DNA from: Mesostigma viride
Taxonomy: Eukaryota > Streptophyta > Mesostigmatophyceae > Mesostigmatales > Mesostigmataceae
Direction of reading: 5' to 3'
DNA: 64,000 nt
Assembly: GCA_009746045.1 (NCBI GenBank)
Contig: RPFO01000264.1
Span: 372,001-436,000, forward strand
Both the position numbers and the translations under genes were made by a program. Each line of letters begins with the position of its first letter. Positions within the stretch are counted from its first letter, which is position 1. The notes below the pieces were generated by a model. The model made no database searches and had not been told where the DNA came from. It saw only the letters and a program-made list of their open reading frames with translations. Shown one piece after another: positions 6,244 to 35,061 of the stretch.

Positions 6244-7021
6244 TGTTGGAAAGGTAGAGGAAACTAATGGGTTTTACACAATGCCTTGTGCTTGGCCTTG
6301 TTACCCTTGCACCTTGCAGGTGATGAAAGACTGAGCTTGAAGACAATGGAAGAGAGACCAGAAAAAGAGTTTTATTTCTTAGGCTGAGAGGTTAGGAAAA
6401 GAGGTACCTGGCCTTAGGAGCCAGTTTCTTTTTATACCTTTCTAGCTAGGAAGGATGACATCAGATGCTGATGTCATCATAGAAGCTTGTAGAAACATCT
6501 AAGCATATTCCCAGCATATTCTCAGTATATTCCAGGAATATTCCTGGCATATTCCTAGAACATTCCAAGGTCATTCTAGAAAGGTTCTAATGAGCTGGCA
6601 TGACAGTTGATTGCCAAATGTCCTCTGAACAATGTGCCACATCTAATGCTTAATAAAGTGACACATGGTTTCTTCTTGGAATGACAAGTGTAATCCAATG
6701 AGTCTATCCACTTGTCAGTCAATGGAATGCAACACTTGTCACTATGAGCTTCCAACACATGTCAGCTCATGGAATGGACACTTGTCTACCAAAGAAGTAC
6801 ACCACTTGTCAAGCATGGAAGTGATGCTACTAGACCAACTCAGGTACAAGAGATCTATGGCCAAATATAGGACTATGGCACATGAACATTGATCAGCTCA
6901 TTGAGATCAATTCATCTAACTTATCAAATCTATCAAATTCTCAGCCCTTGTGAAGTAAAACAAAGAAGAAGAAAGTCAGGCTGGAATATAGTGTGGGCAG
7001 GTGGGTATATGATCCCCAACA
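6244..7021 (-). repeat. R1 5' long terminal repeat (778 bp)
   Basis: On the minus strand it begins TGTTGGGGATCATATACC and ends CCTTTCCAACA, a TGTTGG/CCAACA inverted pair typical of plant copia elements. A TATA box (TATAAAAAG, 6428-6436) and a poly(A) signal (AATAAA, 6371-6376) lie in the right order for U3-R. The 5' half is AT-rich with repeated gcatattc/gtatattc motifs near 6500-6560. Confidence 0.92.
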
Positions 7022-7946
7022 CGCATGACGCGATCGATGCGTGTGGTGAGACCGCCCAGCTTGAGGATCCAGCAGAGTAGCGCGTGGAAATACGCGAGCT
7101 CACTTGCAGCCTCGCAGTACGCACGCGCCTCGGCGGTGTCCGACCCCACATACACACGGCGGTGGAGACGTGAGAACCACGCAAAGATGGAGGATGGCGC
7201 AGATCGGTCAGCGTTTGAGATATAGCTAACAGCCGCACATGCACCAACCACGCATCTTGGTGAGCACCCGCGCATCCAAAGAACTGTCACAATAAGCCCC
7301 AAGCTCGATGGGCTTGTCCCAGTCAACACCCTGCAGTACCAACCCCGGTGAGGCCTGCACATACTCAGCTACAACCGGGCGGGCCAACAAGCAGAGAACA
7401 TCGTCTGTCAACCGACTAAGGACAGCAAAGTCAGGGCTCGTGGTACACGCAAGCCAATTGAGTTTGCCACGCAGCGCACCACACTCAGAGGGAAGGATAG
7501 GCCCAGTGCGGGCCATGACCTCCTTGACCAGGTCGGGGACATAGCTACCCTTAGGATGCAGCAACATGACCCACTGCCCTTGCTCATCGTGATCGAGAAT
7601 AGTGTCCATGCCCATGAAGGGCACGATCTTGCCCGGCTCCCTAAAGACGAGCTTGCCCACAGGGTACACTGAGTGCACGAGCGAATGGAACCACACAATC
7701 CACTCCCGTGGCCCCAGGCAGTCACAGTCATCGGCATGCACAAAAACAAACACGAGCTCCCCCTTCCAGACACCAACAAACAAGGAGGGGTCCAGGTCGC
7801 TGTACATCATGCGTGCGCGGTTAAGTAGAAGGCGCTCTAAACTCTTGCGCCACGCCCGCGGCCCGGCCACGGTCCCATCCACAGCCTTCACCAACCTCAT
7901 GAACTTCTTGCCCACAATAGGTTCCCACATCTTGGGTGTCCTAACA
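7022..7946 (-). pseudogene. R2 RT (C-terminal part) and RNase H (interrupted)
   Basis: From ~7945 down: VGKKFMRLVKAVDG, then AWRKSLERLLLNR (RT region B of copia type), the catalytic box VFVHADDCD near 7730-7755, and the thumb. The RNase H start AYCDSSLDARVLT is near 7265-7300. A frameshift near 7230 moves the frame to AVSYISNADRS, FAWFSRLHRR and TAEARAYCEAASELAYF before R1 cuts it at 7021. The box is HADD, not YVDD. The 5' half of the same RT is 10.3 kb away at 18253. Confidence 0.85.
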
Positions 7947-8600
7947 ATTTGCGCAGCAACTCGTCAGCAGAGCTTGTGAGCTCCTGGTCCTTGCCGGCTG
8001 GAATGACCCTAGGCTGCTGGCTAGCAACCTTTATCCTCACACCAGGCCTACGACCCTCGATAGGCTCGCCACTCGTCGTGACGACCAAGGTTCGTGTGTG
8101 AAGACGCTCGTTGCCTCGTTGAGCCTCGAGCTATATGCAACCTCGTTCCATCCTTGTTCCTCGGTCATGAGCAACGCTGGGCAACGCTACATTGCCAGAG
8201 CCTCGTATCGCTGCCTTGCATCCTCGTTGCAGGCAGCATACAGGAATCTCTGGCTATCCTGTGTCTAGGACAGCACAGGACCTGCCACAGTCCTGCAAGG
8301 ACTTACATCCTTGCAGACCTGCTGGCTGGTTACTGGCTTCTACTAGCCACAGTACCGTTGAGCCCTCAGTACACTGTGTCCCAGTCACGTGAGAGTCCAG
8401 GCTAAGCCTGTGCAGGCACGGCCTGCCACGTGTCCTGTCCACTATGCCCTGAGTGTGCACCGCCCTCGCCCACCGGTCGGCAGTACTTCGGGACTTGATA
8501 ACTTTCTAGTCCCTTGTCTGTTCTAGGCGGTTGACACGGCGTTGGAAAGGTCTCCTCAACCTGCATCCATCTAGCACATTGGTGCCCCAATATGCTAACT
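7947..8600 (-). repeat. R3 3' LTR
   Basis: Plus-strand termini are atttgcgcag...tatgctaact. It matches 17590-18247 except for a 4-bp difference near 8230 and a few substitutions. The minus-strand start AGTTAG follows a purine-rich tract. Confidence 0.92.
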
Positions 8601-8908
8601 CCAACCCTTTCTTGTTTTGGAGCTTGGACCAGCCTGAGAACCTATCAGCCACTGTCCCCACAAGCCTTCAGACATCTGATCCCTCCCAGAGACCAGACCT
8701 GCCTTTTCTTTTGGAACCTGAGGTGCCTCCAAATATTAGCTAGGCCTGCTCATTGGTTCAAAGGTTGCCCTCTGACCCACATGACATCCCAACCCTTTCT
8801 TTGGGAACCTGGTGTAGATTAAAGTTAGGTCTTCACTTAGTCAGAGGAGTTTGGATAGAGGAGTCCATGAACGTACTATTGTGAGTTCCTGGTCATCCAG
8901 TTATCACA

Positions 8909-8933
8909 GGCGCCCGTTCATATGGCGCCCGCC
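8909..8933. repeat. GGCGCC-rich hairpin in R3 3' UTR
   Basis: ggcgcccgttcatatggcgc and following cccgcc: an inverted GGCGCC pair with a short loop. R8 has ggcgcccgtcttacggcgcc at 38310-38329 in the same relative place. Confidence 0.6.
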
Positions 8934-9063
8934 ACGGAGCCTCCTTTATCTTTTAAATCCTTCCAAAGACTGAGAGAGCCCTGACAAATGTTAGCCAACA
9001 CATGGGGAGCCCATGTCCTCACTGAGTCTCACTCAGGATTCATACATGCCAGGCTGAGGTCAG

Positions 9064-9084
9064 CTGGGGAATCGAACCCCACCC
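9064..9084 (-). other. tRNA T-arm-like stem-loop in R3 3' UTR
   Basis: Minus strand: GGGGTTCGATTCCCC, a perfect T-stem/T-loop with the RNA polymerase III B-box consensus GGTTCGANNCC. No full cloverleaf could be drawn around it. Similar blocks occur at 38478-38497 (R8) and 19638-19658 (R4). Confidence 0.5.
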
Positions 9085-9535
9085 CATATCCTCCAGGTTT
9101 GGATCAGCTCCTGGAACTGAGCATCACAAACAACAAGACATGACAATAACAAGATTATGTTTTATTATAAAGGAGTATAACCCATAGTGAGGCCCCTGGC
9201 AACCACGTCCAACATGGTCACACAACCAGGGATTTTATTAGCATGCAACAGGTTGGTTACAGAGAATATATACAAATGTACAGCAACCTGTTAGAGCCAA
9301 CACTTGGGCTGCCCTTGCAGGGTCCATTCCATGAAGACCCAAGGCCCATTACAAAGTCCTTAAGACTCTTCTGCAGCTCCATGACAGAGCCAGGCGAAAT
9401 TCTCAGCCAGGGGAGTGACTCCACCCTGACCCCTGTCCAGCAGAGTGTGTCTGAACTCTGAAGGACCTGCTGTCAGCCACCACGTGGCTGCCCAGCCCAC
9501 TGGGATGCCTCCCACCTAGAGCAAGGCTGTTTGGT

Positions 9536-12500
9536 CTACTCTGGCCCTCCCCCCTTGGAGGCCATGAGCCCACGAAGCAAAGGGTATTGCAGCTCAGCCT
9601 TCTCCTCCAGCTTGGTGAGAGCATCTGCAGGGTTGTCCACGCCAGCCACATGTTCAATGTTAGCTAAGCAAGACATTTCCTTGAGCAACAAATAATCAAG
9701 GTCCCTGCTCCTGGCCAGCTGCCTGTGCACAAACTGCACCATGCCCATGCTGTCAGTTCTTACCAGTGTGTGCATCTGCAACCGACAGGAAGCCACTTGA
9801 CATAGCTGGTAAAATAGCTCCCTCAAGTAAAGAGCAGTATGAAGCCCTTCACAGATTGCCCTGCACTCAGCAATGTCACTGCTGGGAGTTACCCTGTTCT
9901 GCAACCGACTGTACCAGCAGACCAGAGAGGACTGTTCCTGCACCAGGGATATTAATGCTGCTGCACGGCCCCTGACCTCTGTGACCTTCCTACTATCCAT
10001 AGAACTGTCCACATAGAGCATCATGTCAAAAGGCCTGTACAAATCCAAAGGACCCAGCATGAGAGGGGGAGACATGCGAACAGCCTCTACCACTCTCTCA
10101 GCACCCACCTCAACCAGTTGGGAATCGGTCAACCGACTCAGTACCAACAGGTCAGGAGCACAAATGCTGGCCAGCCATGCCAACATACCTCGTATTGTTG
10201 CACATCTGGCCTGGGTGATGGGCTCCTGCAAGGCATCTATGATCTGCTGAGGATAATCCTTACCACCCTCCAGCTGGATGGACCATGTACCCTGCTGATG
10301 GACCAAGGTCGCCTGCATTCCACAAAACACCATGGGCTCATTCTCAACCATGTACTGGATCTTACCCAGTTCAAACCGTTTCTGGATCCTGGCCAGAGTC
10401 AACTCTTGCCAAGTGGGATGGCCCAGGAGATGCAGATCATCACCATGCAGGGAGGCAAACGCTGGCAGCCCCTCATAGCTACCCTGAAACAGACAAGGAT
10501 CAACTGGAGAGACTGAGAGACCACAGACAGACCTGAGGTACTTCTCCAAGCTCTTCCTCCAGATGATGGGACTCGATCTAAGGCCTTCCACGCCTTTGAG
10601 AATCCTCAAATACCTCGTCTTCAGCTCTGCCCTCCACACTGCAGGCACCTTAACAAAGAAAGGGGGTATTGTGCGCCAAGTATCCTGTGCTTCCTGCTGA
10701 TCACCCTTAAGAAAAGCCCTCTTGAAATCTACCAACACAGAGCTATAGGGTATCCCCTTCTGCAGAAAAGACAAATAAATGCACAACAAAATCCTCCATG
10801 TATCATGCAGCATCCCTGGTGTGTAAAGCTCCTCATCTGCTAACTGTCCAGTGCCATGGTACTCAGTCACAACTGGTCTAACATGTGGCACCTGCACGCC
10901 ATCTACCTCCTTGAGCTTGAGGACAAACATCAATCTGAGCAGCTGGTGATCCTCAGGGAGGACATCCACAGGCTCTGCACAGTTGGCAACTATCCACTCA
11001 TGCCCAGAAGCAACAAAGCCAAGAGTCCATGCCTTAGCCATCTTGGGGCTTTGCATCATCTCCACTAGCTTGCGCCAAGGTACAGGACTCGTTCCTGGGA
11101 TCTGGTACCTCTGCACACCCAACTCACGTGGGTCAAACGTAGTAGGGAGGATCAGCAGGTCCCCAGCAATGGGCTCCTTTGTATCAGGACCCTCTGCCTC
11201 TAGACCCCTCACAGCCCTTACAGCCACACTAAGACCCTGGGAGTAGCGATATCTCTGCAAGGGAAGGCGGCCCTGCCCTTCTAATGCTAGCTCCTCAGAG
11301 GATATCCTCACCCCTGGTAAGCACAAGAAGTTCTGACCTAGAATGGCAGGCCCCTGATACCCTTCAACCACACTGAACGTGGTGGGCACCCCCAGGATAG
11401 GCACACTCACTTCTCCCAAGATCTTCATGGACACATTCCCAGAGAAATCAGACACAGCTAGGCAGCTAGGGGATGACCACTGCAAGCCTGCAGCATCCTC
11501 TACCCTTAGAATGGACACCTGTGAGTTGGTATCCACTTCTAGTGCTGGTGCCCCACATGACCCCCATCCCGTGAGCTTAGATACCTTGGGATCACGCTTG
11601 CTGTTCTGCAGAGCTCGAATGATGTCCGCCATAAGCAGCCCCCTGGACTGTGGTGCAGCCCTGGCCACCTCTGGCCTTGTGACAGACGTCTCAGCAGACT
11701 CCTGCTCACCCTCATCCATCCAGGACAGACCATAATCCAAGCATGGTGGGTTAGCATCTGCTGCCTGGCTCTCATCCTGCTCATCTCCCTCCAAGGGAGG
11801 ATCAGGGCCGTCTTCAGGCCAGATTGCAGTTGGCCTTCTCTCCTTGACGTGAGCCCAGGATAGCCTGTACACGTGCTTGGGATTACTCTCCAAAGCCACC
11901 AGACAAGAATGGTTAGCTTCCTCAACATGGGTTACCTGCCCATCTTGCCACTTGCCACGCTTGCCTGGTAATGACGGTTCCTTCCACATCCTGACCCTCA
12001 GTCCCACCTGGGGCCTCAGCATTTTCCAACCCTTGTCCTTACGCCTCAATCTGGAAAACACCCTGTCTGCCTTCTTCAGGCAGGCTGCCACCACGTCCTG
12101 TGATAGCATACCAAACTGCAATGCCAGGGGAGAGACTGCCACACCATCATAGTAATAGGTTACCCTGTGGTTAAGCTGCTCCTCAATCCCCTTACACCAA
12201 GCTGCTTTCTCTAGAGCTGATGCCACAACAGGCACACTCCTAGCTGCTAGCACCACTGTTTTTACTTCACGTATAGATCTCTCTACAGCTCCCTGCTGCC
12301 CATGGCATTCCCTAGGGACCACTACCAACTTACAAGGAAGCTGGTCAGCCAGCTTGATCAAGCAGTCAAACTGCAAGTCAGCTTGCACCTTGGTGTACAC
12401 CCCAAAGCCTGGCAACAAAGACTGGAGACCCATCAACAGCTGATGCTCCTGCATTCCAGGAAGAATGGTCAGCAACCTATATCTGCTAAACCTATCCACC

Positions 12501-12993
12501 CCCACCAACAGATACATGCCCCTGATGTGTTGGATGTCCACCTGGATATCCCCCCGCTCTCTAGCAGGTTCTCTGGCATGGGACTGTGGGAGGCGAACAG
12601 CATTCTCCTGACAGACACAATTCTGAGCAGCTGCACTGCAGGCCTCTAGCAAAGGCTCCTTGCCAATCTTCCAAGCAAACATCTCTGCCTGCTTAGAGTG
12701 ACCAAAGATATGGTGTAGAGTGTTTCCAGCCTGAGCATAGCTCAACCCCCTGTCAGCCTGGCTGCACAGAGAGGAACGTGACAAAGACTGTGTGCTTGGG
12801 ATAGCACGACCCACCTGCTGTTCTCTTGCTCCAGGGACCTCCTCCAAGGTAGCTCGGCTCCCAGAGCCAGCCCCGGTTCCCACAGAAGCTGCAGGTCCTT
12901 CCAGTCTGGCGGCTTGACTCCCAGAGTCAACCCCAAAACTGGAGACCCTGCACCTGCCACAGGCACAGGGAATTCCACTGCTGCAGCAGCGTT
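9536..12993 (-). CDS. R3 pol: integrase - protease - RT - RNase H in one frame
   Basis: The frame opens at ~12993 after a TAA and has no obvious ATG; numbering below is from 12883. Integrase zinc-finger-like part HHIFGHSKQAE...CVCQ is at ~55-95. The core has Asp (IQVDIQHIRG), Asp (VQADLQFD) and Glu (GAVERSIREV), then an SH3-like tail (KRGKWQDGQV). Next comes a retropepsin-like domain, ALEVDTNSQVSI at ~449 and AILGQNFL at ~512. RT follows with VDFKRAFLKGD at ~717, GLRSSPIIWRKSL, and ASLHGDDLHLL at ~812. RNase H has YVDSSMDSR, ECRAICEG, RTDSMGM and DNPADALTK. Protease between integrase and RT matches neither copia (PR-IN-RT-RH) nor gypsy (PR-RT-RH-IN). It probably needs recoding from gag for expression. 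Confidence 0.93.
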
Positions 12994-13128
12994 ATTGCAA
13001 TCATTGAGTGGAAGCACCTCATCATTCCCAACCCCTTGCTGCTGCACAAGAGGGACACCCCCATTACTATGTACAACTGTTCGTCCCACTAGGGGTGATT
13101 GACTATTTACAGGGGACAACATCTCAAG
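12745..13128 (-). other. R3 open extension of gag after a TGA, overlapping pol
   Basis: Directly after the gag stop (cca TGA ctt) the same frame stays open for ~127 codons, with a protein-like linker (VGRTVVHSNGGVPL, then an Asn/Ala-rich part). It overlaps the pol frame, which lies at -1 relative to it. In the overlap the gag-frame triplets GTT TTG GGG contain the heptamer T TTG GGG (12931-12937), which fits the X XXY YYZ slippery pattern. Read-through followed by -1 shifting would give gag-pol; this is inference. Confidence 0.5.
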
Positions 13129-14478
13129 TCATGGCTTACCCACCTGGCCAGAGCCTGCTCCAGCAGACTTGGCCTGGTCTGGGCAGTCACGTCGCCAATG
13201 ACCCGTCCTGCCACATCCAAAGCACTTGTCATCCTTCCCAGCAGCAGCCTTCTTCAGGCCACCCTGGTTCTGGCTGCTCTGACTGGCCTGGGTGCCCTGG
13301 CCCTGGCTCTTGCCTTGCCCTTGGCCACCCTTGTTCTGCTGACCACCCTGGTGACCACCAGCCTGCTGCTGACCCTTGCCTTTGGATCCCTGCTGCTGGC
13401 CCTTGCCACCCTGGTTACCATTCTGCCTGCGCCTGTTAGCCCTCTGACGCCTACTAGGTCTGGTTTCTCCCTGAGCACCCTGCCCAGGGGCGTCACCATG
13501 GACCTGATGAGCGGAGGCTGAAGGGGCACCAGTCACCTGGATTGCCTTGCAAGCAGCATTGTCAGATGGACGGATATTGAAAATAACCTTTTGCAAGGCT
13601 GGCCACGTCCCATCTGTCTGATCAGCAAACATCCTAGCTGCATTTCTCCCATCCACACTCAGCCCCATGCGATCCAGGAAGTAATCTGCCACTGCTCTAT
13701 CAGTCAGATTGAAGCCATGCTTGGCCCCCTTCTCCCTGATGCGTGTGAGCCGCTGCAGCTCCTCAGCTATTGTGCCCTTGATCTCAAAGGTATCATAGCT
13801 GAGCTTATAGTGATTAGTGAGGTTGAGTACCTTATCAGAAAACTCCTGACGTAGGCCCTCTAGGAACTGAGACCAAGTCAGCTTGTCCTTGACAGCCTGC
13901 CTAGCCTTGTCCCTCACCCTCTCACTTGAATCCCTATTAGTCGTGGATGTGTGGAATACCTGCACAAGGTTGACAGTGGGATCTACAGAGCATGAAACTA
14001 GCTCCATATCCTCCAACCACTTGTCTAGCTCTTCCTGTCCCACAGGAGGCTTGAGAGGCTTCTGGCCATTCATCACAGCCACAGCACTCATATGAGGTCT
14101 AGTCCCAGGCAAAGCACGAGGGTCACTGCCAATGACAGCAGCTCCTACTGGTGCTAATGGCGCAGGAACATGAGCTGCAGGAACACCAGACGGAGGCACA
14201 CATGGTCTCTTACCAGGTGCTTGCCGTTCAGCATCATTCTGGCCCTCCCCCGTCAGCACCACGCCGTCGGTTGGCCACCCTGCACGCTCCTCCCCTTGTG
14301 CTACCTCTTTCCTCTTCCGGTTGGACGCCCTCCTGCCATTGACGCCCTCTGCCGTTGGGATTGCCTGTCCCTCTGGCACGACGTTGGCGGGGCCTTCCGT
14401 GTCTGCCCTTGCCTCACCCCCGCCATCCCCCGCTCCCGCCCCGCTCCCGCTGCCACCCCCGCGCGTGTTACGAAGCAT
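13129..14478 (-). CDS. R3 gag with CCHC zinc knuckle
   Basis: ATG at 14478, 449 codons plus TGA. The N-terminus is Gly/Ser/Ala-rich. A central helical capsid-like part (LDKWLEDMELVSC ... WSQFLEGLRQEF ... DYFLDRMGLS) is followed by a Gln/Gly/Lys-rich basic stretch and the knuckle CFGCGRTGHWRRDC about 20 residues before the end. R8 gag has the same plan. It would form the particle and bind RNA. Confidence 0.88.
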   Translation of the reverse strand: MLRNTRGGGSGSGAGAGDGGGEARADTEGPANVVPEGQAIPTAEGVNGRRASNRKRKEVAQGEERAGWPTDGVVLTGEGQNDAERQAPGKRPCVPPSGVPAAHVPAPLAPVGAAVIGSDPRALPGTRPHMSAVAVMNGQKPLKPPVGQEELDKWLEDMELVSCSVDPTVNLVQVFHTSTTNRDSSERVRDKARQAVKDKLTWSQFLEGLRQEFSDKVLNLTNHYKLSYDTFEIKGTIAEELQRLTRIREKGAKHGFNLTDRAVADYFLDRMGLSVDGRNAARMFADQTDGTWPALQKVIFNIRPSDNAACKAIQVTGAPSASAHQVHGDAPGQGAQGETRPSRRQRANRRRQNGNQGGKGQQQGSKGKGQQQAGGHQGGQQNKGGQGQGKSQGQGTQASQSSQNQGGLKKAAAGKDDKCFGCGRTGHWRRDCPDQAKSAGAGSGQVGKP

Positions 14479-16327
14479 TATAGAATACCACCGAAAACAC
14501 ACGCAGATATGGCTGCTGGAACCCTCTCAGGCTCACGCACTTACTCCAGACGAGGCCGCCTCCTGGCTTGCACTCGCCTGCCCCTCCTCACGGTCTGGAC
14601 GTTGCTCAACACCCTCAGCAACCGATGTGGCTGCTGCTGCCTCTGCGACAATCTGGAGGTTTGGGTTAAGGGGAGGTGGCACCCCAAAACCCTTAAAAAT
14701 TGAACTATGGTAATAACACTTGAAATTCATTTGCACAATGCTGAAATATGATTGCGGGCACTAAATAACATCTCTTGTGAGTTGTCCATGCACTTGTTGG
14801 GGGTACTACCCCCAAGTATACGCCAATATTGCGCTATAAATAGAAAAAGACGCTAATTAGGGCTGGGTATGCCCCAGCCAATGCACACATTTGTTGGCAA
14901 CCAAAAATCAACCATTTGTAGTTCCCTGAGTGTGTAGCTTGCTGAGCTATTTACATCATGGAAATGGCAAAACCTTGAACAGTTATTAATTTTCCCGCAA
15001 AACAGGTCTTTTTTTACCGGACATTGGGAATAAATGTATCATAAACACTTCAAATAAGGCCACAAAATCAAGCGAAAATCCGGCTAACAGGGGGACAGCA
15101 GTGGTCCAAGTCCCAGGTCATTCCGACAAGTCTAGCTCAAGTTATAAGGTTTTGCGTGCTAAAACCTGAACATACGCTAAATGAGGTTTTTCTGATTATA
15201 AGGCCACCTAGACATCATGTTTTCCATACAAGAAGCCAAAAAACATGCCCAACTCGATCACACAACATAAGAAAAGGCTGGGCACCTCATCTGCCCTCCC
15301 CTGCCCTCAGCATGGCCAGCCTTGCCAGCGTGCGCATAGCAACACCATCGCTAGGCATACACGCACCAAGAGAGCATACACTATTGCTCAACCCAAGGTT
15401 ACCATGTAAATTTATGCCAAGAACTCAGCAAGTATACGTGTAAAAACCTTAGAAAGACTGCCCAAGCAATAGAGGCAACTGCAGCCTGCAAACTTGGCAG
15501 CAAATCATACATGTTGTCTGCCAACCATTCACATCCTATCCAGCTTGCCTTGCTGCACACATAGCAGGGAAGTCTTAATGGTCATAGCTCAAGGAAAGCA
15601 ATATAAACACCTATCTAATGCAATGCCACTCATGCAGTATGGCCAGCAAAAGAACCACTCTCACCTTCCTTAATTCCAATATGGCAATTTGCTAAGAAGC
15701 TGATGCCAGCTTGTTAGCCTCTAGGCACATGCCGGATGTCGTTACTAAAACAGGCGTGTCAGATCCGGCACATAACAAAGCGTCTGAGCAAGCTCATGTC
15801 CAAAGGATGATGGAAAACAAATGTCAACACATTACCAACAATTACTTGACCTCTGCGCATTTAGCATGCCAGCCACAAACTACACGAAATTGTACGAAAT
15901 TGCTAGGAATCTGACGATGCAACCGAAAGAAATGGAGAGCTTCCTGCAGGGAAACTGCCCGAAAAAAAGGCGAAAGGCCGACGTCAATGCACCTGCCTGC
16001 GTGGAAATGTTTCATGCATAAACTGGCACGCAAGCTCGAACAATAAAAGACATCATCCATTGATCAGGCGAACAAGGAAGGTGCGCCTTCCGTGAATACG
16101 TCGAAGGCGACATGCGCAGGCCTGCGTAGGTTCTTACCTTGAATGCCGGAAATGTAAAAGAAACCGGGAAGCTTCGGCACAAACTCGACAACGCCATTAA
16201 GTAAGCTTCATAATCGGTCTTTAGAGCCTACGTTGCCTCACAATAGCTGCCGTAAACCTGCATTAAATTTCATGATCCGCAAGAGAAATTATATCCTGGA
16301 CCCCCGCGCCCGTAGCCGTTCGAGAAA
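14479..16327. other. 1.85-kb non-coding stretch between R3 ORF1 and gag
   Basis: No supported gene; AT-richer than the surroundings. It holds a perfect palindrome with a 1-nt loop at 14797-14815 (ttgggggta-c-tacccccaa) and a TATA-like tataaata at 14835-14842. In R8 the corresponding gap between ORF1 and gag is only ~0.2 kb, so much of this may be a nested insertion, but I found no duplicated target or inverted ends. Confidence 0.45.
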
Positions 16328-17566
16328 TTAGCGATATTGCAAACCGTAAACTTTCCGCCATGAAATGAGGTCATCAACTAATCTTCTGCGAAATTCAAGC
16401 ATTTTTTCTAGCTGTTTACGTGCCATATCGATTAATATTGCATAAAGGCATGCCGCCATGGCCACCTCCGCGAGTGTTGAGCGGTCCGGGCACACATTAT
16501 ACACCGTACGGACGGTACCGCGAATTTTTTGGCGCGGAAAATATTCGGCGCGCCACGTCCCCTTAAACTCTCCCAGCACGCAGGTCACAGGTCGCCCGTC
16601 TTCCTTGCGTTCGACTGGATGTTGTGTCTCGCCTGGGTTGCGATGCCAAGCAAGATTGCGCAACCACCGCTTACCGCCGCCGACAAGCTCGTTCTGCTCG
16701 CCTCGGCCGTAACGGTCGTACTCGTGAGTCGCCTCACGAGGTATATGCAGATCAGCTCTCTGCCTTGCCTCGTAGGTCTCGGTAGTGCCGTCGCCCTCGT
16801 TTATCTGCTGGGCTGAGCGCTTGACGGAGCCCTCTGGCTTGTCAGTCCACTCAAAATGGACGTCTTCAGGCGTCTTCTCGACCCCTGCGACAATCTCCAC
16901 CTCCGGACCCCACGCAGTGGTGGTTTCCGGCCTCGGTGTATCAAGCCTGGAGTACACTCCGAAAGGCTGCGTGGTAATATAGAACCTGTCTGCGTACCCT
17001 CTCGACTCTTGCAAAAGGACAGCAACAAGATTCTCAATGGTTTGGGCAAATACCTCTGCCGTGCTCCAAGGATTTACCGTCTCCCGAGCACGCGCGTTCC
17101 GGATGATGTCGGCGTCTGGTACCCCCTCTCCTAGCACTGCTGTCGCCACCCAGTGGTTAAACAGTCGGGTGCTGCCGAGCGCTGTTGCCACAATCTGGCT
17201 AAGCGCCTCCCTGGCAAGGTCGAGACCGGCAAGCGTGATATGGGCGCCCTGATAAGCGACCTCCACACGATTAGCAGTTTCAGCTAGCGCGTCCCGTAGG
17301 CGCACCAACTCTTCCACCGCCACTCGCCCCGTCTCACCTGGAGAAATCACGACGCGAGCCCGTTGAATAATCGGGTCCGCCGCCGCTGGCCTGTTGCCTC
17401 CCCCGCTCACCGCCACCCACCCCTCTTCTGCCAAGTGCCTCGCTACGTAGGCCGCTTGCACGAATGTTGGAGCGTTTGCTTGGTTACGGTAGGGGAAAAA
17501 CGCTTGCGCGTCTCTCTGCTCGTTCGCCTCACCAGCACCGTGGCTGCTTGACGATGAACCAGACAT
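16328..17566 (-). CDS. R3 ORF1: extra protein between 5' LTR and gag, function unknown
   Basis: ATG at 17566 (MSGSSSSSHGAGEANEQ), 24 bp inside the 5' LTR, 412 residues. An upstream in-frame extension into the LTR exists but looks accidental. Residues ~60-180 are predicted helical (VEELVRLRDALAETANRVEV). The C-terminal third is rich in Trp, Arg and His and has no zinc motif. The central part (FAQTIENLVAVLLQ ... VEKTPEDVHFEW) resembles R8 ORF1 (RQVLINLVAFLSALREW ... HTPEMEDPEFTYE), in the same place relative to its LTR. I do not recognise the family. It is not gag (no CCHC), and too long and intact to be chance. Confidence 0.7.
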   Translation of the reverse strand: MSGSSSSSHGAGEANEQRDAQAFFPYRNQANAPTFVQAAYVARHLAEEGWVAVSGGGNRPAAADPIIQRARVVISPGETGRVAVEELVRLRDALAETANRVEVAYQGAHITLAGLDLAREALSQIVATALGSTRLFNHWVATAVLGEGVPDADIIRNARARETVNPWSTAEVFAQTIENLVAVLLQESRGYADRFYITTQPFGVYSRLDTPRPETTTAWGPEVEIVAGVEKTPEDVHFEWTDKPEGSVKRSAQQINEGDGTTETYEARQRADLHIPREATHEYDRYGRGEQNELVGGGKRWLRNLAWHRNPGETQHPVERKEDGRPVTCVLGEFKGTWRAEYFPRQKIRGTVRTVYNVCPDRSTLAEVAMAACLYAILIDMARKQLEKMLEFRRRLVDDLISWRKVYGLQYR

Positions 17567-17589
17567 GGAAGCGTGGAAGCAATAGTACG
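17567..17589 (-). promoter_or_regulatory. R3 leader with non-canonical primer site
   Basis: After the LTR the minus strand reads CGTACTATTGCTTCC. It does not start TGG, so it is not complementary to a tRNA CCA end. R8 (CGTATT), R5 (CGTACT), R4 (TGTATT) and R9 (TGCATT) carry a similar hexamer at the same spot. Confidence 0.55.
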
Positions 17590-18247
17590 ATTTGCGCAGC
17601 AACTCGTCAGCAGAGCTTGTGAGCTCCTGGTCCTTGCCGGCTGGAATGACCCTAGGCTGCTGGCTAGCAACCTTTATCCTCACACCAGGCCTACGACCCT
17701 CGATAGGCTCGCCACTCGTCGTGACGACCAAGGTTCGTGTGTGAAGACGCTCGTTGCCTCGTTGAGCCTCGAGCTATATGCAACCTCGTTCCATCCTTGT
17801 TCCTCGGTCATGAGCAACGCTGGGCAACGCTACATTGCCAGAGCCTCGTATCGCTGCCTTGCATCCTCGTTGCAGGTGCCCAGCATACAGGAATCTCTGG
17901 CTATCCTGTGTCTAGGACAGCACAGGACCTGCCACAGTCCTGCAAGGACTTACATCCTTGCAGACCTGCTGGCTGGTTACTGGCTTCTACTAGCCACAGT
18001 ACCGTTGAGCCCTCAGTACACTGTGTCCCAGTCACGTGAGAGTCCAGGCTAAGCCTGTGCAGGCAAGGCCTGCCACGTGTCCTGTCCACTATGCCCTGAG
18101 TGTGCACCGCCCTCGCCCACCGGTCGGCAGTACTTCGGGACTTGATAACTTTCTCGTCCCTTGTCTGTTCTAGGCGGTTGACACGGCGTTGGAAAGGTCT
18201 CCTCAACCTGCATCCATCTAGCACATTGGTGCCCCAATATGCTAACT
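17590..18247 (-). repeat. R3 5' LTR
   Basis: 658 bp, matching 7947-8600. Ends on the plus strand gctaact, next to the TSD taaca at 18248-18252. Confidence 0.92.
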
Positions 18248-19174
18248 TAACATACAGCGGTGTGGTGCCCTCCCACGATTGAGCCGTCTCATCTGAATCC
18301 CCGTTAAGGAAGGCCTTAGAAAAATCCAGCACCGCGGAGCCATGCGGCAAGCCTTTGTTGAGGCGCCCGAAATGAAAGCACACTAACAATCGCCAAGTGT
18401 CTTTATTTAAGCCCGGGGCAGTCAGGGCTGAGGAGGGCAGGTTAGAAGATCCAGAAAATTCTAGCACCACAGGTCTAGCAAACTCTACTTTCCTGTCAGT
18501 GCCGGGAACCGGCTTCATCTGGAAGGTCCATTTGAAACGAAGCAACCGGCCATCCCTTGGGACTAGGTCCACTGGCTCCACACAACCCAGTCCTAACCAT
18601 CGTTCCCCTGCAGCCAGCATAGCCCCTTGGGTATTGTCTAGCCCTTCCTCGGTTGAGACGTGCCTGGCAACATCATGGAAGGACATGGGGCTTTCAGTGG
18701 CAACATCGTGGAAGCTAATCCCCAAACTGTCAGGGGTGAGGGCTTTAGGGGTGAGAAGATCGCGTGCAGGAGGCAATTCAGAATCCTTGTACTCTACCCC
18801 TTTCATGGCAGCCACCATAGGCAATGAGAGACCCCGAGCAGCGACATCGAGGGAAAAATTATTCAATCGCATGCCGCTCGGGACAGCTGTGTGCTGCTCA
18901 CTGTAACCCCGGGTAGCGTCAAGAACGGATGCCCTAATAAGGCGGGCCCATCATACCCCTCTGCCACACACATGGGCGTGTCTGCGCCGAGTATGGTTAA
19001 GGGAAATTCCCCCAGGACCTTGTAGGACCCTGACCTAGCAAAATCAGTGACCTGAGTCCAATGAGAGGGAAGCAAAGGAAAGTCTACACAATTGGCCCCG
19101 ATAATAGAGACCTGGGCCTGGGTATCAATGAGGAGCCCACAATTCAGCGCCCTAGCGGTTAACAAGGAAGAGAT
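18248..19174 (-). pseudogene. R2 protease and N-terminal RT (interrupted)
   Basis: Protease: LLIDTQAQVSIIGAN near 19110-19140, then YDGPALLGHPFL near 18940. A frameshift near 18880-18890 (protease frame ends at TGA 18863) leads to MRLNNFSLDVA and the linker. RT then starts with LLRFKWTFQMK, DTWRLLVCFHFGRL and motif A VLDFSKAFLNGD near 18305-18340. At 18252 the frame stops against R3 and resumes at 7941. The protease frame is at -1 relative to the integrase frame of the same element. Confidence 0.85.
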
Positions 19175-19519
19175 AGTTAAAGCCCGACCGGCTCAGCTAT
19201 GGCGGTCGGTCACGTTGAGCTTGGGATAAGGTGAACACAGAGAACTGCTGTCGGAGCTGGCCCACCACTGGTTTATGTCTTAGCAAGCAAACCCTATCCG
19301 GTTAGCCGTAACCGTGGGACAAGCTAGCTGTCCGTACCGACCCGGATAAGGCCCCGGACTGGGGCCTAGGTGGCGCCGGCCCTAGGCGCCGCCCTTAGAC
19401 CGGTCGACCGCATCGGACCGCCGGATTATAGCCGGCGGCTTAGCGGACGCTAGCGGAAGGCGTGCGGACGGACATGGGGAACTTAGAGCCAAATCCTAGG
19501 GCTCTAGAGTTGCTCAACT
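19175..19519 (-). repeat. R4 3' LTR
   Basis: 345 bp, plus-strand termini agttaaagcc...gctcaact: a 4-bp AGTT/AACT inverted pair. It contains many cgg/ccg inverted blocks between 19380 and 19470. Confidence 0.93.
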
Positions 19520-19896: not shown

Positions 19897-22215
19897 TCAC
19901 GGGTGTTGCATCGTCATGCGCTTGCGCAACACTGCGTACTGCGGGGCAGCCTCCCGCGCCTCCTTGGTGAGTGCATCCGCGGGATTGAGTTCATCCGCGA
20001 TGTGCTGGAGACGCGTGACGCAGGAGGCCGCCTCAGCGAGTACGAGGTAATCAACGTCCTGTGACCGCGCATAGGGATTGTCAAGGAAGGCCAAACAACT
20101 TTGTGAGTCAGTGTGCACCGTGCTAGTCCAGTGAAGAGTGAACCCACACGAGCCAAATACCCAACCCAGCAAGTACCGCAGCCACATGCCATGTGAGATA
20201 GCTGAAACAATGCCCCGGCATTCAGCCGTGTTGGGGCTAGTGGCAATGCGGCTGTGCAAGCGCGAGTACCAATCTAACAACATGCCAGGCTGTCCCTCAT
20301 TGCTAATAAAGAACAGTGCCCCCATGCGGGCCCGCACTTGGCTGACTGTGCGCGTCTCTAGATTAGCATCCGTCACTATCTCGAGGTGCACCGGCTGTGA
20401 GCAATCGAGCCCACGAAGCACAATGCCGGGCGTCATGGCCAGCTGCCGCCGAACATGAATGGACCCTAGTCCTTCCAGCACATCATCGGGCAGGCGAGCG
20501 AGCACCGCCAAATCAGGTGCCACCGTGTCCGCCAACCACCCGAGCTTGCCCTTAACCGAGGGCCCATGGGTTGCCAACAGCGGGGACGGGAGGTCGGCCA
20601 GCAGGTCAACCACATAGTTGCGGCTATCCTGCATGTGCATGACCCATTCGCCAGAACGCGAATCCCGCTGCAACGTAGACTGCACGCCGCAAAACACCAC
20701 GGGTTTACCCTCCTCATGATCCACCGCCCTGCCCAGGGGAAACTTAGCCGCCACTGCAGCAAGAAACTGGGTAGCAAAGGTGCGAGGTGCCACCAGCTTG
20801 AAGTCATCGCCATGCCACACGAAGAGGGCTGGCTCGCCAGGGACGCCGGTGGGGACCACAAAGAAGTTAGGATCCGCGCGATGGTACGTGGCCCCTAAGC
20901 TCTGCAAGACCTCCTCCGCGGAAATGCGGAAGATGATGGGAGAGCTCTGCAGCCCCTCCACCCCTGTCAACAGCTCGATATACTCGCTGCCAATGGTGCC
21001 ATCCTGCCAGACCACCGGGACCTTCACCACGTAGCGGGTGCCTTGCCATGTTTGCTGCGCGACCCCAGCGTCGCTGTGGAGGAATGCCCGCTGAAAGTCA
21101 CCGCACCACATCCCGTAGTCCTTGCCCGCGTTCCGCTTGCCCAAGTAGATGACCGTCAGTAGCCGATGCGAAACATGGTTGAGCCCAGGGGTATAAAGAT
21201 CCTTGGCGTCCAGCGGGGAGGACCCCTTCGTCTCCGTGACCACGGGCCTTACCCGGAACACCACCGAAGAGTTGGTCTCGTCCGGCTTGTAGGTGAGCAC
21301 GAACTTCAACCGCAACCGCGTGGCCCCGGCTGGCACACTCTCCAATCCTCGGTAGACCTCGCGCTCTCGCCACTGCTCCTTGGCTCGAATGAACGCGTCG
21401 CGCCACAAAGCAAACTTGAGAGGATCTTGACAGTCCAGGACAAGTTGCTCCCACGTCACAGGGCTATCCGCCGCCAGTGAGTGTGAGTGGAGGCCGAAGC
21501 TGCGCGGGTGCCAATCCTGAGGCTGAATGATGGACTGGACGAGCGGCGGTGTGGAAAACGCCGCCATCGGTAAGCGCCGCACGACGCCGGGCTGCCCGAC
21601 CACCACCCCCAATGGAGCGTGGTACTCGCGAAGCGGGATGCTGCCCACCCCCGCGACTGACAGCAAGTCAGCGGACACTGAGAACCCCGGGTATGATACG
21701 AAAGGTTCGCCCAGCAAGGCCACATCCTCGTAGCCATCCACGACGTGAAACGGCGTGTCAATGCCCAACACCGGCAGCACCACCATCCCGGTAACTTGAT
21801 ATGCCGAAGTGCCTGCAAAGTCGGTCACCGATTTGTACGGCGACTCTAGCACTGGATACAGGGTGGCTGCCCGACGAGAGATAATAGACACGGATGCTTG
21901 CGTGTCCACAGCCACCAGCTGCCACGGTCTACACGTAGGAAACAAGGCTGACTTAACCGGCCTGACCCCCTGTGAGAGAGTTTTGACCTGAGCCACCCCT
22001 GATGCAGCTTTCGCTTTAAGCGCCTGAGCACGCCACAAGGCCGTGACCGTTGAAGCCAGGTCCCTAGGTGGGCGAGGCGCATGGGCAGGACCCTGACCCT
22101 CCGGCGAGGCCACGCTAGGCGGGCCTCCCACATTATCCGTGGCTAGCACAGGAGGTGAGTCACTACGTGCACTAGGTCCCGTCAAACCCACCCCATCCTC
22201 ATCCCACCCATCCAC
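19897..22215 (-). CDS. R4 protease - RT - RNase H
   Basis: Open frame of ~772 residues, extending further upstream without a stop. Protease-like VAVDTQASVSII at ~103 and ALLGEPFVSYPG at ~167. RT motif A GDFQRAFLHSD at ~374, GLQSSPIIFRISAEEVL, box FVWHGDDFKLV at ~466. RNase H: IVTDANLETR at ~617, AECRGIVSAISHG, HTDSQSCLAFL and NPADALTK at ~745. It overlaps the integrase ORF by at least 34 bp and lies at -1 relative to it. In the protease motif Gln replaces the usual Gly. All main catalytic Asp/Glu residues of RT and RNase H are visible and there is no internal stop. Confidence 0.93.
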   Translation of the reverse strand: MDGWDEDGVGLTGPSARSDSPPVLATDNVGGPPSVASPEGQGPAHAPRPPRDLASTVTALWRAQALKAKAASGVAQVKTLSQGVRPVKSALFPTCRPWQLVAVDTQASVSIISRRAATLYPVLESPYKSVTDFAGTSAYQVTGMVVLPVLGIDTPFHVVDGYEDVALLGEPFVSYPGFSVSADLLSVAGVGSIPLREYHAPLGVVVGQPGVVRRLPMAAFSTPPLVQSIIQPQDWHPRSFGLHSHSLAADSPVTWEQLVLDCQDPLKFALWRDAFIRAKEQWREREVYRGLESVPAGATRLRLKFVLTYKPDETNSSVVFRVRPVVTETKGSSPLDAKDLYTPGLNHVSHRLLTVIYLGKRNAGKDYGMWCGDFQRAFLHSDAGVAQQTWQGTRYVVKVPVVWQDGTIGSEYIELLTGVEGLQSSPIIFRISAEEVLQSLGATYHRADPNFFVVPTGVPGEPALFVWHGDDFKLVAPRTFATQFLAAVAAKFPLGRAVDHEEGKPVVFCGVQSTLQRDSRSGEWVMHMQDSRNYVVDLLADLPSPLLATHGPSVKGKLGWLADTVAPDLAVLARLPDDVLEGLGSIHVRRQLAMTPGIVLRGLDCSQPVHLEIVTDANLETRTVSQVRARMGALFFISNEGQPGMLLDWYSRLHSRIATSPNTAECRGIVSAISHGMWLRYLLGWVFGSCGFTLHWTSTVHTDSQSCLAFLDNPYARSQDVDYLVLAEAASCVTRLQHIADELNPADALTKEAREAAPQYAVLRKRMTMQHP

Positions 22216-24280
22216 GGGGTCATATTGGGGCCCAGGGGAGGGGGGGGTGTAGCTGTGTCTGCCCCTGGGAGCGACCCGTGGGGTACCACCTCAGATGCTA
22301 CGACAGGCGCATTATCCTTCACTACCCACCCCAGTGCCCTGTTGGCTGCCAGCTCACTCTCCATGCTATCCCCTTGCTTATAGCCTGCCACCGATGCCCA
22401 TGGTACCCTATACACCCGATCATTCCACTCTATGTCTATGACCCGCAGCGGCCAGTCTAACTTTGTGATGGCCCCAGGCCCCTGCATGGTGCCCCGTTTG
22501 CCGCTGGGCGAGCTCTCCTTGTGGAACATGACCAACTGCCCGACCTCAAAAGCGCTAGACAAATCAGGCAGCGTGGCATCCTTGAGCCGCAGCTTGGCGG
22601 CGGTATCCTGTAGATGCTGTTGGTATGCCTCTACTACCTCGGGTGAGTAGGTGCCCGCTGACAGCCCCCGAGGCGTGACTAGCCCAAAGCCCTTGACATC
22701 AAGCACGTGCCTATGGTTGCACACATGCATGAGCTCCTTGCACCACGCCGTCTTGACCGCGTAGGATTTGCCATGTGGGTTATCCTGTCGCTTGGCTGCC
22801 ACAGTCTTGACATAGCTTACAGTGCGATCTATCATGCCCATATTGCCGTGATCCTCACGCCCCACGATGACCACGGCCTCCATCCCCGGCAAACCTTGCA
22901 CACAGCGGAACTGCTGGTCTAGCATGAGCTCCACTACGGGATGAAAGAAAGCCAGGCTGATCTTGATAGCCCTGTGCAGGTCAGCCTCAAACATGTGAGG
23001 CAGCGGCTCAATGTAGGTGGCCTTGCTGAACCTATCCTTGACTATGAAATAGGTGTCCCCCCCTTCCATGTGCATGACATCCCCCACAAGGTACCCTCGC
23101 TCCAAGGGTGGAGTCTTGGCATGCCGCCTACGCGACTTCTTCCTGATCTTGATGCAGGCAGGACACTGAGCACGCACATTCTTCAGCTCGTTGTATAAAG
23201 GTGCCCCTAACATGTGTGCCCCCTCTACCTCGGCTTGGGCCTCATGCCCGTATGCACGGTGCATCTGGTATGCTAACAGTTTCAGGGTGACAGCCTGAGG
23301 TGCAGTGGCATTGTCAGGATTCTCAACAGGTGGGGTGACTACTGGGGTAGTGACATTGGCTAACTGGGCAGCTTCAGAGGCTGCACGAAAGGCCGCCCGT
23401 GTGAGCACCTTGCCAATGTGAAGATCCACACTAGGGTGGTGTGTACCGAGAACATCTGCCCGCCCAGCATTCTCTTGCACTGTCACAACATTCCTCATAG
23501 GCCCAACCGCCCCAGTATCTAGCTGGGGTGCTGCAGTAGTGCTTGGTCGCTCGGCGTTGTACACACCCGACCTAGAAGACACCACATTGCTTAGGTCACG
23601 CATTGTAGACCCGTGCTCAGGAAGCACGTGATCCTGGCGCGACAGAGCCAGAGCAGCATCAACGGATTGCGTGAGCACATCACGGAATGAGACAGAGGAT
23701 GCAGTCACGTTGCTTTTAGGAACGACGTCAGGCTCTACGACGGCCCGGTTCAGCGTGACGCATTGAGCAAAAGAAGGGGTATCGAGCGTGCTCTCACCTG
23801 ACTTTCGTGCTGCCCGTCGCTCTGCCCACTCCTCGCGTGTGCCGTGGACGACGATGCGCTTGGCCTTGCACGCCTCCACGCTGTGACCACGCAGAACGTC
23901 GTGGCACTTGCGGCAAAGGTTGTCCTCGAGCTCCAGGTCCGGGCGAACTCGGCAGTCATCCCGGACATGGCGACGTCCGAAGCAGCGCTCACAGCGTTGC
24001 TTGCGGTCAGTAGACGCCCCCTGCTGCCGCTTGGCCGGGGGATTATCACCCTGCTTGGCGTCGCCACCATGCCCGCGCTTGCGCCCTCGCTGGCCCCCGT
24101 TGTTGCCGTGGCCGACGACCTTTTTCAGGATGGCCGTAAGCTCCGACCGCGTAATTGGAGCCTCTGCGCCTGAAGAAGAAGACGCGCCGGCATCCACCTT
24201 GCGCAGGGATGGCAGAGCAGCCGAGGCAGCCGGCTTGGACTGCGCACTCTTGAAGCATGAGATAAATACAGCATGCCCTC
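22182..24280 (-). CDS. R4 gag C-terminus with two zinc knuckles, and integrase
   Basis: The open frame formally reaches 24374, but similarity begins ~24280 (CFKSAQSKPAA). Zinc motifs CERCFGRRHVRDDC and CRKCHDVLRGHSVEAC, then a long linker, then the integrase H2C2 part HRAYGHEAQAE...CPACIK. Core: VGDVMHMEGGD (Asp), LMLDQQFRC (Asp), but GMIDRTVSYVK where R2, R3, R8 and R9 have VER or IER; the third catalytic residue is Asp, not Glu. SH3-like tail: VGQLVMFHKESSPSGKRGTMQGPG. Near the end a run of eight C (22240-22247) sits where this frame and the protease frame are both open. Confidence 0.88.
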
Positions 24281-24983: not shown

Positions 24984-25328
24984 AGTTAAAGCCCGACCGG
25001 CTCAGCTATGGCGGTCGGTCACGTTGAGCTTGGGATAAGGTGAACACAGAGAACTGCTGTCGGAGCTGGCCCACCACTGGTTTATGTCTTAGCCAGCAAA
25101 CCCTATCCGGTTAGCCGTAACCGTGGGACAAGCTAGCTGTCCGTACCGACCCGGATAAGGCCCCGGACTGGGGCCTAGGTGGCACCGGCCCTAGGCGCCG
25201 CCCTTAGACCGGTCGACCGCATCGGACCGCCGGATTATAGCCGGCGGCTTAGCGGACGCTAGCGGAAGGCGTGCGGACGGACATGGGGAACTTAGAGCCA
25301 AATCCTAGGGCTCTAGAGTTACTCAACT
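24984..25328 (-). repeat. R4 5' LTR
   Basis: 345 bp, same termini as 19175-19519; TSD gagat follows at 25329-25333. Confidence 0.93.
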
Positions 25329-26725
25329 GAGATGACTGCAGTGCTCGGGCCCAGCTGAGGGGGGACGCTGCAGTCTGTGGTGGGCGGCGAAGGGAGCCTA
25401 ACCCCATGTTATTGTCCCGGCGCAGCCCTAGAACAATCTTGCTGAGCAACCCACCACCCCGGCGAGGCTGACTAACGGCAGCCGGACCCTGGCTAACGGC
25501 AGGGGTAATGCCCTCCCTACTACCCTCGCGCAGGTCAGCAGGGGGCTCGCGAGCTAAGCTCTGCACATCTGCAGCAAGTGCCACCAGATCACCGTCCTCC
25601 TCAACATGCTCATCGTCCTCTACCTCCCGAGCTTCGGCAGACATTTGCATAGGGTCAGAGGCAGGCATGGGTAAAAGAGGGGCAATCACGTCACCTGGTG
25701 GAGGCCGCAAGAAGTTGTCCGCGTCCTCGTAGTAGTGCAGAAGGCGCTCCCACGCACTTGTGTTCGGTTGATAGTGCTTGAGCTTGCTCCACGGGATGTG
25801 GTGTTGCTTGTCCTGCAAGGAAACAACGGCCTTGCGCACACTCCCATCCACGGACACTACCGTGGCTGGACCATTCCACTGTCCCCTCTTTCCAAAGGGG
25901 CCCTCTTTATGCACCCAAACCAGGTCTCCTACACTATAGGCGGTAACCGGCCTACGTGTATCCCTTCGTACCAGGTTGGCAAATCTACCCTGCAAATGGC
26001 GTGCCCACTCCTCTTCTATCTCTGGTGGGTAGTGGCCGTGCTGCAATCCCTCAGCTGTTATCACCACATTGCGAGAAGGAATGGACAACAACACACGCCG
26101 ATTAAGGCATACACAAATCCGCAACGCCCACATGAGGCAGGCTGCGTATGCCGAAAGGGATGCATCACCTTGTCTCCGTGCAGCTTGCTTGAATTCTTGC
26201 ACGGCACGCTCCACTATACCCTGACCAGTGTGGTCCTCACGCCCAACTGTCTTGAGGCATTCAAATCCAGGCTGGCCCTCTAGACACGCGAACTGCCTCT
26301 CCATCTGTATTGACTCGAGTGGTGAGAAAAAGGACGAAGAGACATCCATGGCTTCTGCCAGGTCGGCGGCTTCCATATGACGCAAAGGAACTACAGCTAC
26401 GTTATGAGCATATCTATCTATTGCAATAAAGTATGGCATGTGTGCCCAGAACAGCACATCACCTACGATTTCCCCCTTTCTCGCAGGTGGATGCTTTACA
26501 TGGTGGCGAGGAGGCTTGGGGCCTGACGATTGACATTGTGGACAATCGGTTTTCTCTGAATATAGTTTAATTAACGCATGCGGGAAAGATAGGGCCGCTA
26601 TGCCTTGGCCTGGATGTGGAAGGCTGTCTGCGACATGGGCTGACTGATTCGATCTGTACAAAGGGTTTCCTGTTCGCCCAAATTCTCCTTGGATGACCCG
26701 GTTGTTTATAAGGGTCGGTGGCTAT
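25329..26725 (-). pseudogene. R2 integrase and linker (truncated upstream)
   Basis: The frame opens after a TAG near 26722. H2C2-like part HVADSLPHPGQG...CPQCQ, then the core: GEIVGDVLFWAH (Asp), IQMERQFACLEG, where the other elements have Asp (MLDQQF) and R2 has Glu, and GIVERAVQEF (Glu). SH3-like tail VGDLVWVHKEGPFGKRGQWNGPA. An acidic linker runs to ALQS at 25334, where R4 is inserted. No zinc knuckle or gag is found upstream. The unusual second catalytic residue and lack of gag suggest this copy is dead or depended on others. Confidence 0.85.
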
Positions 26726-26765
26726 TAATTAGTGGTCCGAGAAAACTAATTGTAGGTGTTATACG

Positions 26766-27312
26766 ACTTGCTTGCAAAGATTCGTGTTTGGTTGCACCAG
26801 CTGAGGTTAGGTGGGGACCTGTAGGGTCGGCTGGCTTCTTAACAAATCTTTGGCTGATTTGTTTTCTTTAGTGAGTCGTGATTAATTATTGTATAGTGGA
26901 TTCGGACCGGCCCAAGGGGGTTGATGGGCGAGTTTATTGTTTGCCAAACTTGGGAACCTTGTACAACTACCTGTACGGTTAACGCACTAGCCTGGGGGTG
27001 CGTGGCCACGTTGTTTGTAGTGGCGTTTTCAACACTGTTCAGGCCGGCGTGTGACGCATGGTGGTGTTACTTAATTTAGGATGATGTCAGCTTGTGTGTC
27101 GGCGGGCCATGCCTTAAGCAAGCTAGGCAGGCAATTATCCGCAATTGTTTCTTTCCCCTCCCTCCCACCCTGGAGGCTTCTTGCTTCCGCGTGCGGATTG
27201 AGAAACCATAAGGCCACTGTTAACTGCTGCATTTGTGGCAGGGCTTCACTTATTGTATTCAATCAAATGCTGGTCTTCTTGGGAGCTCAGTGATCTTAAT
27301 TTTCGTAACACT
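26766..27312 (-). repeat. Candidate R2 5' LTR
   Basis: No coding sequence. The right border is where R5 integrase breaks off (plus strand taacact then cacgac). At the left border the minus strand reads CGTATAACACC just outside acttgcttg, matching the CGTATT/CGTACT leader start of R8, R3 and R5. Minus-strand ends would be AGTGTTACG...GCAAGCAAGT. The partner LTR lies outside the window, so this rests on position and the leader motif alone. Confidence 0.4.
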
Positions 27313-34628: not shown

Positions 34629-35061
34629 TGTTTGGGAGTGAGAAAACAATGTTTGCCACAACGTTTTACTTTATTTCACTCAGATAAAAATAAGTCTCAG
34701 TCAGCAGCTGGCCGGCTGCTAGTTCCACCACAGGAGTGTGTGAGGTGTGAGGTACTGAGAGAGCAAACATTGTGCGTAGCTTCGCCTTTTAAACAATTCC
34801 AGGCTCAGCTACTGGGTAGCAGTTATGATCTTCCTACAACGTGGCCACACCAAACCGGGTCTTTTCTGACTGTGTGGCAGTTACAATCATAACGTGATCT
34901 CAAGCCAACCATTCACAACCAAAGTTCAAGGTCAGTCACAGAATGACTGGGTCACTTATGGAACAGAACTTAAACATGCGGCACATGCCCGTCCATGCAG
35001 TCCAGAGCTAGCACTAAACTATAAGTACTAGTTTCAGGCAGGTGTGTCGATACTTCTGACA
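34629..35061 (-). repeat. R6 5' LTR
   Basis: 433 bp. Minus-strand ends TGTCAGAAG...CCCAAACA (TG...CA). Followed by TSD ggctt at 35062-35066. Confidence 0.92.

Follow-up and report, generated by a model that had tools for sequence, protein, structure and literature searches.

The window, a 64,000-nucleotide stretch of Mesostigma viride DNA, contains retrotransposons in which integrase stands in front of the protease-like domain of Pol, which is in turn followed by reverse transcriptase (RT) and RNase H. This order is real and is retained in five families of the window (R2, R3, R4, R8 and R9), and among LTR retrotransposons the lineage represents a new variant. We consider it likely that these are autonomous elements of M. 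viride, or of a very near relative, that form one lineage with an RT nearest to the copia type. To judge from their near-identical copies and LTRs, the elements were recently mobile. By taxonomy, the host is a streptophyte alga. The earlier note had interpreted the sequence as a retrotransposon lineage with the order gag, integrase, protease, RT and RNase H, and this interpretation is supported.

Element R3

R3 is bounded by a 5' LTR (17587–18247) and a 3' LTR (7944–8600), which are 98.9% identical in a self-BLAST of the window, and, like all elements described here, it lies on the minus strand. The 5' LTR starts with AGTTAG and probably ends with GCAAAT, three bases inside the repeat match. 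The gag ORF (13129–14526) encodes one CCHC zinc knuckle (zf-CCHC, E = 2.7e-5). The pol ORF (9536–12991, 1151 residues stop to stop) is a single open frame consisting of an integrase with an H/C region, a DDE core and an SH3-like end (about 12736–11834, ends approximate), a retropepsin-like domain assigned with a predicted model (11563–11252, DTNS at 11533 and AILG at 11347), and an RT (HGDD at 10447) with RNase H (together 11059–9551), which match RVT_2 at 18.1 bits and a lineage RT–RNase H profile built partly from R3 itself. The order integrase–protease–RT–RNase H, which the earlier note had read in this frame, is thus confirmed.

The window copy of R3 carries about 1.9 kb of extra sequence between the leader and gag (14670–16560), which is missing in five other copies compared. 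Long open frames are present 5' of gag in R3 (16328–17773), R9 (52248–53774) and R8 (56287–57075) and match no Pfam family above cut-off. A protein encoded upstream of gag (ORF0) was dropped as a component of the element design because the frame varies among R3 copies and is not intact in all of them.

With an LTR pair, a target duplication, gag and pol, the lineage has the make-up of LTR retrotransposons. By eye, the LTRs of R3 and R4 start with AGTT, those of R4 and R8 end with AACT, and no TG..CA ends were seen in R3 or R4. The repeat match reaches past AGTT by 9 bases in R8 and by 3 in R9, and for these two AGTT was taken as the start from the duplication or by analogy. Target duplications of 5 bp were seen by eye in R3 (TGTTA), R4 (ATCTC) and R8 (ATGAG), and an R3-family copy on another contig (C2111) has CTCTC. 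In R9, no target duplication was found by eye, and the 3' LTR seems to be without its last bases. The canonical element R5 has LTRs of the form TGT..ACA and the duplication AAGCC.

Four further families in the window

Self-BLAST of the window gave LTR pairs for R4 (19175–19519 and 24984–25328, 99.1%), R8 (37206–37828 and 57022–57644, 98.9%), R9 (46665–47035 and 53782–54152, 99.7%) and the canonical R5 (27845–28274 and 34629–35058, 98.8%), and none for R2. Mapping of P0004, which like P0003 is a EukProt protein from the JGI set Mesvir1, shows that R4 and R3 interrupt R2 and that R9 interrupts R8. R5 also appears to be inserted in R2, judging from the position of a gag frame (35034–35804) the start of which nearly matches the gag of R2 copies.

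The window copies of these four families are split by frameshifts or insertions, and their domain order was pieced together from neighbouring segments. The R2 pieces are 95–99% identical to P0004 and comprise the integrase (25297–27478, in pieces 27478–27299 and 26547–25297 with 98% and 95% identity to P0004 residues 1–60 and 60–477), the retropepsin-like domain with a DTQ motif (18875–19174, 97% identity to residues 465–564, profile E = 2.8e-39) and the RT with a partial RNase H, which is interrupted by R3 (7018–18872, three pieces with 96–99% identity to residues 569–1083); this copy stops at P0004 residue 1083. In R4, P0004 mapping and a profile place the integrase at 22350–23291, and profiles place the retropepsin-like domain at 21625–21936 (DTQA at 21906) and RT–RNase H at 19900–21435. 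The first half of the R8 integrase (54149–54544) is continued past the R9 insertion (46662–46165), and profiles place the retropepsin-like domain at 40476–40787 (DTNS at 40757) and frameshifted pieces of RT–RNase H at 38788–40289. R9 has, by profile, an integrase (49824–50740) with one frameshift, which is unbroken in two other genome copies (L057 and L058), a retropepsin-like domain (49162–49470, DTQA at 49443) and RT–RNase H (47428–48966).

In R4, the frames of integrase and protease share 109 bases (22182–22290) around a run of eight C, which may be a copy-specific indel or a frameshift site. Between the integrase and protease pieces of R8 lies a tandem 1.44-kb unit in copies that are 98–100% identical (41047–45057). 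A plus-strand frame of 330 residues (45038–46030) may, judging by resemblance, encode the C-terminal portion of a LINE protein. At 59296–59701 and 62511–62762, arrays of the 8-base unit GTTGCACC in direct and reverse-complement form make up inverted arms.

A six-frame scan of the window with a lineage protease profile, four of whose six rows derive from the window, gave five matches, one per element (R8 40772–40488, R9 49467–49174, R3 11560–11264, R4 21933–21637 and R2 19147–18875), with E-values of at most 2.8e-39, the next being 2.6. A canonical copia protease profile, two of whose four rows derive from the window, matched R5 (32746–32453) and R1 (5252–4995) only (next E = 0.79). Since the profiles are partly built from the window, the matches arise by construction and the informative part is their absence elsewhere, in scans that a very divergent protease could escape. 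The canonical elements R1 and R5 are an internal control within the window, though one from which the canonical profile was partly built. The earlier note's extension of the R3 order to R2, R4, R8 and R9 holds in that the protease lies between the integrase and RT pieces of each, the order being assembled from adjoining pieces. The protein P0001 has the same integrase–protease–RT order in an uninterrupted frame, and the gene model P0004 shows this order too.

Integrase, reverse transcriptase and placement

The RT motifs align, and RVT_2 matched R9 (E = 3.6e-7), P0004 (E = 3.1e-4), R3 (E = 2.1e-3) and P0001 (E = 0.014), all with scores below the Pfam curated cut-off of 31.6 bits; R4 gave no match. 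In an 11-row RT–RNase H tree, R3, R4, R9, P0001 and P0004 form one clade (100/100, stem 1.75), in which P0004 branches first and the other four are joined at 80/71. Because this tree has no outgroup and its long branches were flagged, the lineage may lie either inside or beside copia.

The integrase is of the retroviral DDE type and consists of an H/C zinc region, a core with a predicted RNase H-like DDE fold and an SH3-like end. Residues H29, H34, C61, C64, D89 and D142 (P0004 numbering) are invariant in four rows, and the third acidic residue, as located by motif, is Glu in P0004, R3, P0001 and R9 and Asp in the R4 copy. The integrase profile overran into the protease and RT (the P0001/P0004 overhang), and positions 1–310 alone were used as integrase.

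Five other relatives, P0005–P0009 (E = 5.3e-11 to 7.4e-5), carry an integrase signal before RT, which is weak in P0008 and P0009; P0007 gave none with the integrase profile but has a Pfam rve match. The protease precedes integrase in P0005 and P0007, both of which are members of the profile used. The protease profiles gave no match in P0006 or P0008 and nothing better than E = 0.46 in P0009. A protein search with an integrase–protease alignment (A3) brought up P0004 together with two proteins that carry Pfam domains of the gypsy type. Viral contigs yielded nothing for R3, and no relative was among the 92 stretches that fitted a pattern for alignment A1.

The protease-like domain

The predicted model of the R3 domain has a retropepsin fold with an ILG-type motif, and the rows shown in fold searches are retropepsins, beyond which there may be matches to other folds. 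The fold that the earlier note had anticipated for the DTNS/DTQA region is thus borne out by prediction. Foldseek gave no match to the model under E = 0.001. Pfam matches within the lineage are weak (gag-asp_proteas in three of five members, best E = 0.0047, and Peptidase_A2_2), and R3's own domain has none. All six PDB matches to a profile of the five window domains (E = 0.0093–0.32) are a protease tethered dimer, presumably that of HIV-1, or retroviral-like aspartic protease 1. Two PDB matches to alignment profile A1, ribosomal L15 and a surface protein, were taken as chance. Alignment of the lineage domain to a mixed canonical protease set with hhalign gave a probability of 0.2. The Pfam families Pol_BBD and gag_pre-integrs are absent from the lineage proteins; Pol_BBD is found in R1 and R5 and gag_pre-integrs in R5.

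In the triad of the domain, the third residue is Asn in R3, R8 and P0001 and Gln in R2, R4 and R9; a DTG/DSG triad was not found, and no lineage protease that was read contains DTG. The Asp and Thr are invariant in these six sequences, the other five of which are 32–58% identical to R3. They are also kept in all 10 further genome loci (eight of an R2 subfamily and two R3 relatives), several of which are near-identical and hence not independent; the third residue there is Gln in seven, Asn in two and Leu in one, a broken copy. To our knowledge, neither DTN nor DTQ has been described in a retropepsin. The retropepsin motif is given as DT/SG in a passage of earlier work (PMC2642776).

Loss of the triad Gly makes protease activity uncertain, and the activity may be lost, while the retained Asp–Thr suggests that the site still matters. 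The domain could accordingly be a pseudoprotease, i.e. a structural or dimerisation module within a genuine integrase-first Pol that is cut by a host protease or stays uncut. The presence of Asn or Gln in place of Gly in all intact copies read points this way, but the invariance of Asp and Thr across divergent sequences and further loci argues against it, as a dead site would not need them, and we find this reading rather unlikely.

The order in the literature

Domain order is a standard criterion for the superfamilies of LTR retroelements, and at least one large survey dropped its violators. Passages of this plant survey list 5410 copia elements with the order GAG-PROT-INT-RT-RH and 8453 gypsy elements with GAG-PROT-RT-RH-INT, and state that elements whose order was unexpected, whose domains were repeated or that showed signs of chimerism were always removed as likely mispredictions (PMC6317226). 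A passage elsewhere likewise puts the copia integrase between protease and RT (PMC3248453). Two genome papers report repeats and LTR elements, and the word copia is absent from their main texts (PMC6947507, PMC7027972). The literature matches listed, obtained with strings and words, include no description of the integrase–protease–RT–RNase H order, which may stand inside full texts. Beyond the matches listed, the order could already be catalogued in Repbase or in a subscription journal; given these matches and a survey that discarded such elements, this is improbable.

Linkers upstream of integrase

The earlier note's statement that no protease-like sequence occurs between the zinc knuckle and integrase in R3, R4, R8 or R9 agrees with the six-frame scan of the window, in which two protease profiles found no second protease. 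The main sequence evidence against it is a D[ST]G tripeptide 5' of integrase in three of the six linkers read (LDTGAVGPM in R4, VDSGS in R3 and GDSGS in R8), where about 0.6 would be expected from composition. A cryptic protease at these sites, with the downstream domain as an extra copy, would explain the excess. Yet the three tripeptides share no context, are matched by neither profile and have no counterpart in the linkers of the R2 family, R9 or P0001. In an R2-family copy, about 82 residues separate the second knuckle from the integrase motif (32 residues of gag and 64 of pol, overlapping by 14), and for this family the idea is already difficult to maintain. A cryptic upstream protease is thus very unlikely, and the tripeptides are regarded as chance occurrences in low-complexity linkers.

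Genome copies and the Gag–Pol junction

Copies were counted in the genome for the R3, R2 and R9 families; the order in R4 comes from the window copy alone. In the R3 family, where 40 of 9957 first-look candidates were scored, residues 18–1150 or more are free of stops in 28 of the 40 rows, the window copy included. P0004 residues 1–1150 or more are stop-free in 11 of 45 R2-family rows, and the protease–RT–RNase H query is stop-free in all 64 R9-family rows. Comparison with other genome copies, proposed in the earlier note, has thus given uninterrupted integrase–protease–RT frames in many copies of all three families.

The R9 family is heterogeneous in frame length. Open frames of 1001–1395 residues are found in 38 of the 64 rows (1287 residues in 10 of them), and in two of these copies (L057 and L058) the knuckles, integrase and protease were read in one frame. 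In the other 26, the frames are shorter (700 residues in seven rows including the window copy, 739 in 17, and 735 and 864) and end upstream near the protease, so that integrase and protease–RT are not in one frame. Recurrence of these lengths indicates that a frame break just 5' of the protease is common to several copies; it might go back to one old indel that these copies share, or be a second arrangement that also works (window copy, 47416–50558).

The Gag–Pol junction (12994–13131 in the window copy of R3) is family-specific, with an in-frame UGA in the R3 family, a −1 overlap in the R2 family and a +1 overlap in the R9 family. In 16 of 20 R3-family loci from the 40 rows, gag ends with TGA and pol continues in frame, the third codon downstream of this stop being ATG. 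The exceptions are the window copy (L009) and L019, which have the TGA with a one-base shift, L026 with another gag end, and L027 without a knuckle. The pol frame of R3-family copies is 1197 residues long (1205 in L028). In nine of 10 R2-family loci, gag overlaps by 43 bases, in the −1 register, with a pol frame of 1194 residues; L045 is the exception, the gag frame of L037 is short at its start, and two zinc knuckles were read in L039. The two R9-family copies read have a gag that ends in a frame needing +1.

Splicing as the source of the pol order in P0004 was rejected, as the 11 stop-free R2-family rows are plain DNA. The window is heavily nested, but a juxtaposition of pieces from separate elements through assembly or nesting is a negligible explanation, since whole-order open frames recur in the R3 and R2 families on many contigs and in two R9 copies, and P0001 and P0004 show the same order; an assembly artefact is rejected by the genome copies.

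A model of Pol expression and its implications

In the preferred reading of an integrase-first, recently mobile lineage, Gag would be made first, as the arrangement of the ORFs suggests, and Pol would be reached by family-specific recoding at the end of Gag, i.e. through the in-frame UGA in R3, −1 in R2 and +1 in R9. Splicing or restart may take the place of recoding. The retropepsin-like domain would dimerise in Gag-Pol and free integrase on its N-terminal side and RT–RNase H on its C-terminal side. The cDNA would then be inserted with the 5-bp duplication seen by eye in R3, R4 and R8. As to origin, the domain is probably either a retropepsin of another type that took over from the copia protease or a relocated and altered copia protease. 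A bolder version, which we hold only tentatively, is that of a superfamily-level lineage (Gag / INT-PR-RT-RH) in which a non-copia retropepsin was captured between integrase and RT, its DTN/DTQ site works, and Gag and Pol are joined in three ways.

The existence of an integrase-first lineage that is diverse, has a high copy number and carries its protease within Pol means that domain order can change and persist. It makes testable the question of why the protease usually precedes the other Pol enzymes and supplies a retropepsin with an altered triad for study.

Comparison with known systems

The lineage resembles Ty1/copia (Pseudoviridae) in its RVT_2-type RT, in having integrase 5' of RT and RNase H last, and in the 5-bp duplication, as in R5. 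In contrast to the Ty1/copia order GAG-PROT-INT-RT-RH, its protease follows integrase, with none found upstream, and is of another sequence type with no Pol_BBD match; the RT box is HGDD or HADD, and the LTR ends are not TG..CA. It shares with Ty3/gypsy the weak protease matches to gag-asp_proteas and Peptidase_A2_2, but its RT is of the copia type and integrase was not found after RNase H. In Gmr1, the protease comes first. Gmr1, described in a passage of its report as a gypsy lineage with a copia-like integrase order, also breaks the order of its own family (PMC2774666). The copia relative of the P0005 type, from an ENA contig, has a distantly related RT (23% identical across 50% of the query) and a partly alignable integrase, but its protease (DSGAS) precedes integrase in a single gag–protease–integrase–RT frame of 1480 residues. 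With the retropepsins HIV protease, DDI1 and ASPRV1, the lineage domain shares the predicted fold, the ILG-type second motif and the Asp–Thr of the first motif, and it differs from them in having DTN or DTQ instead of DTG or DSG.
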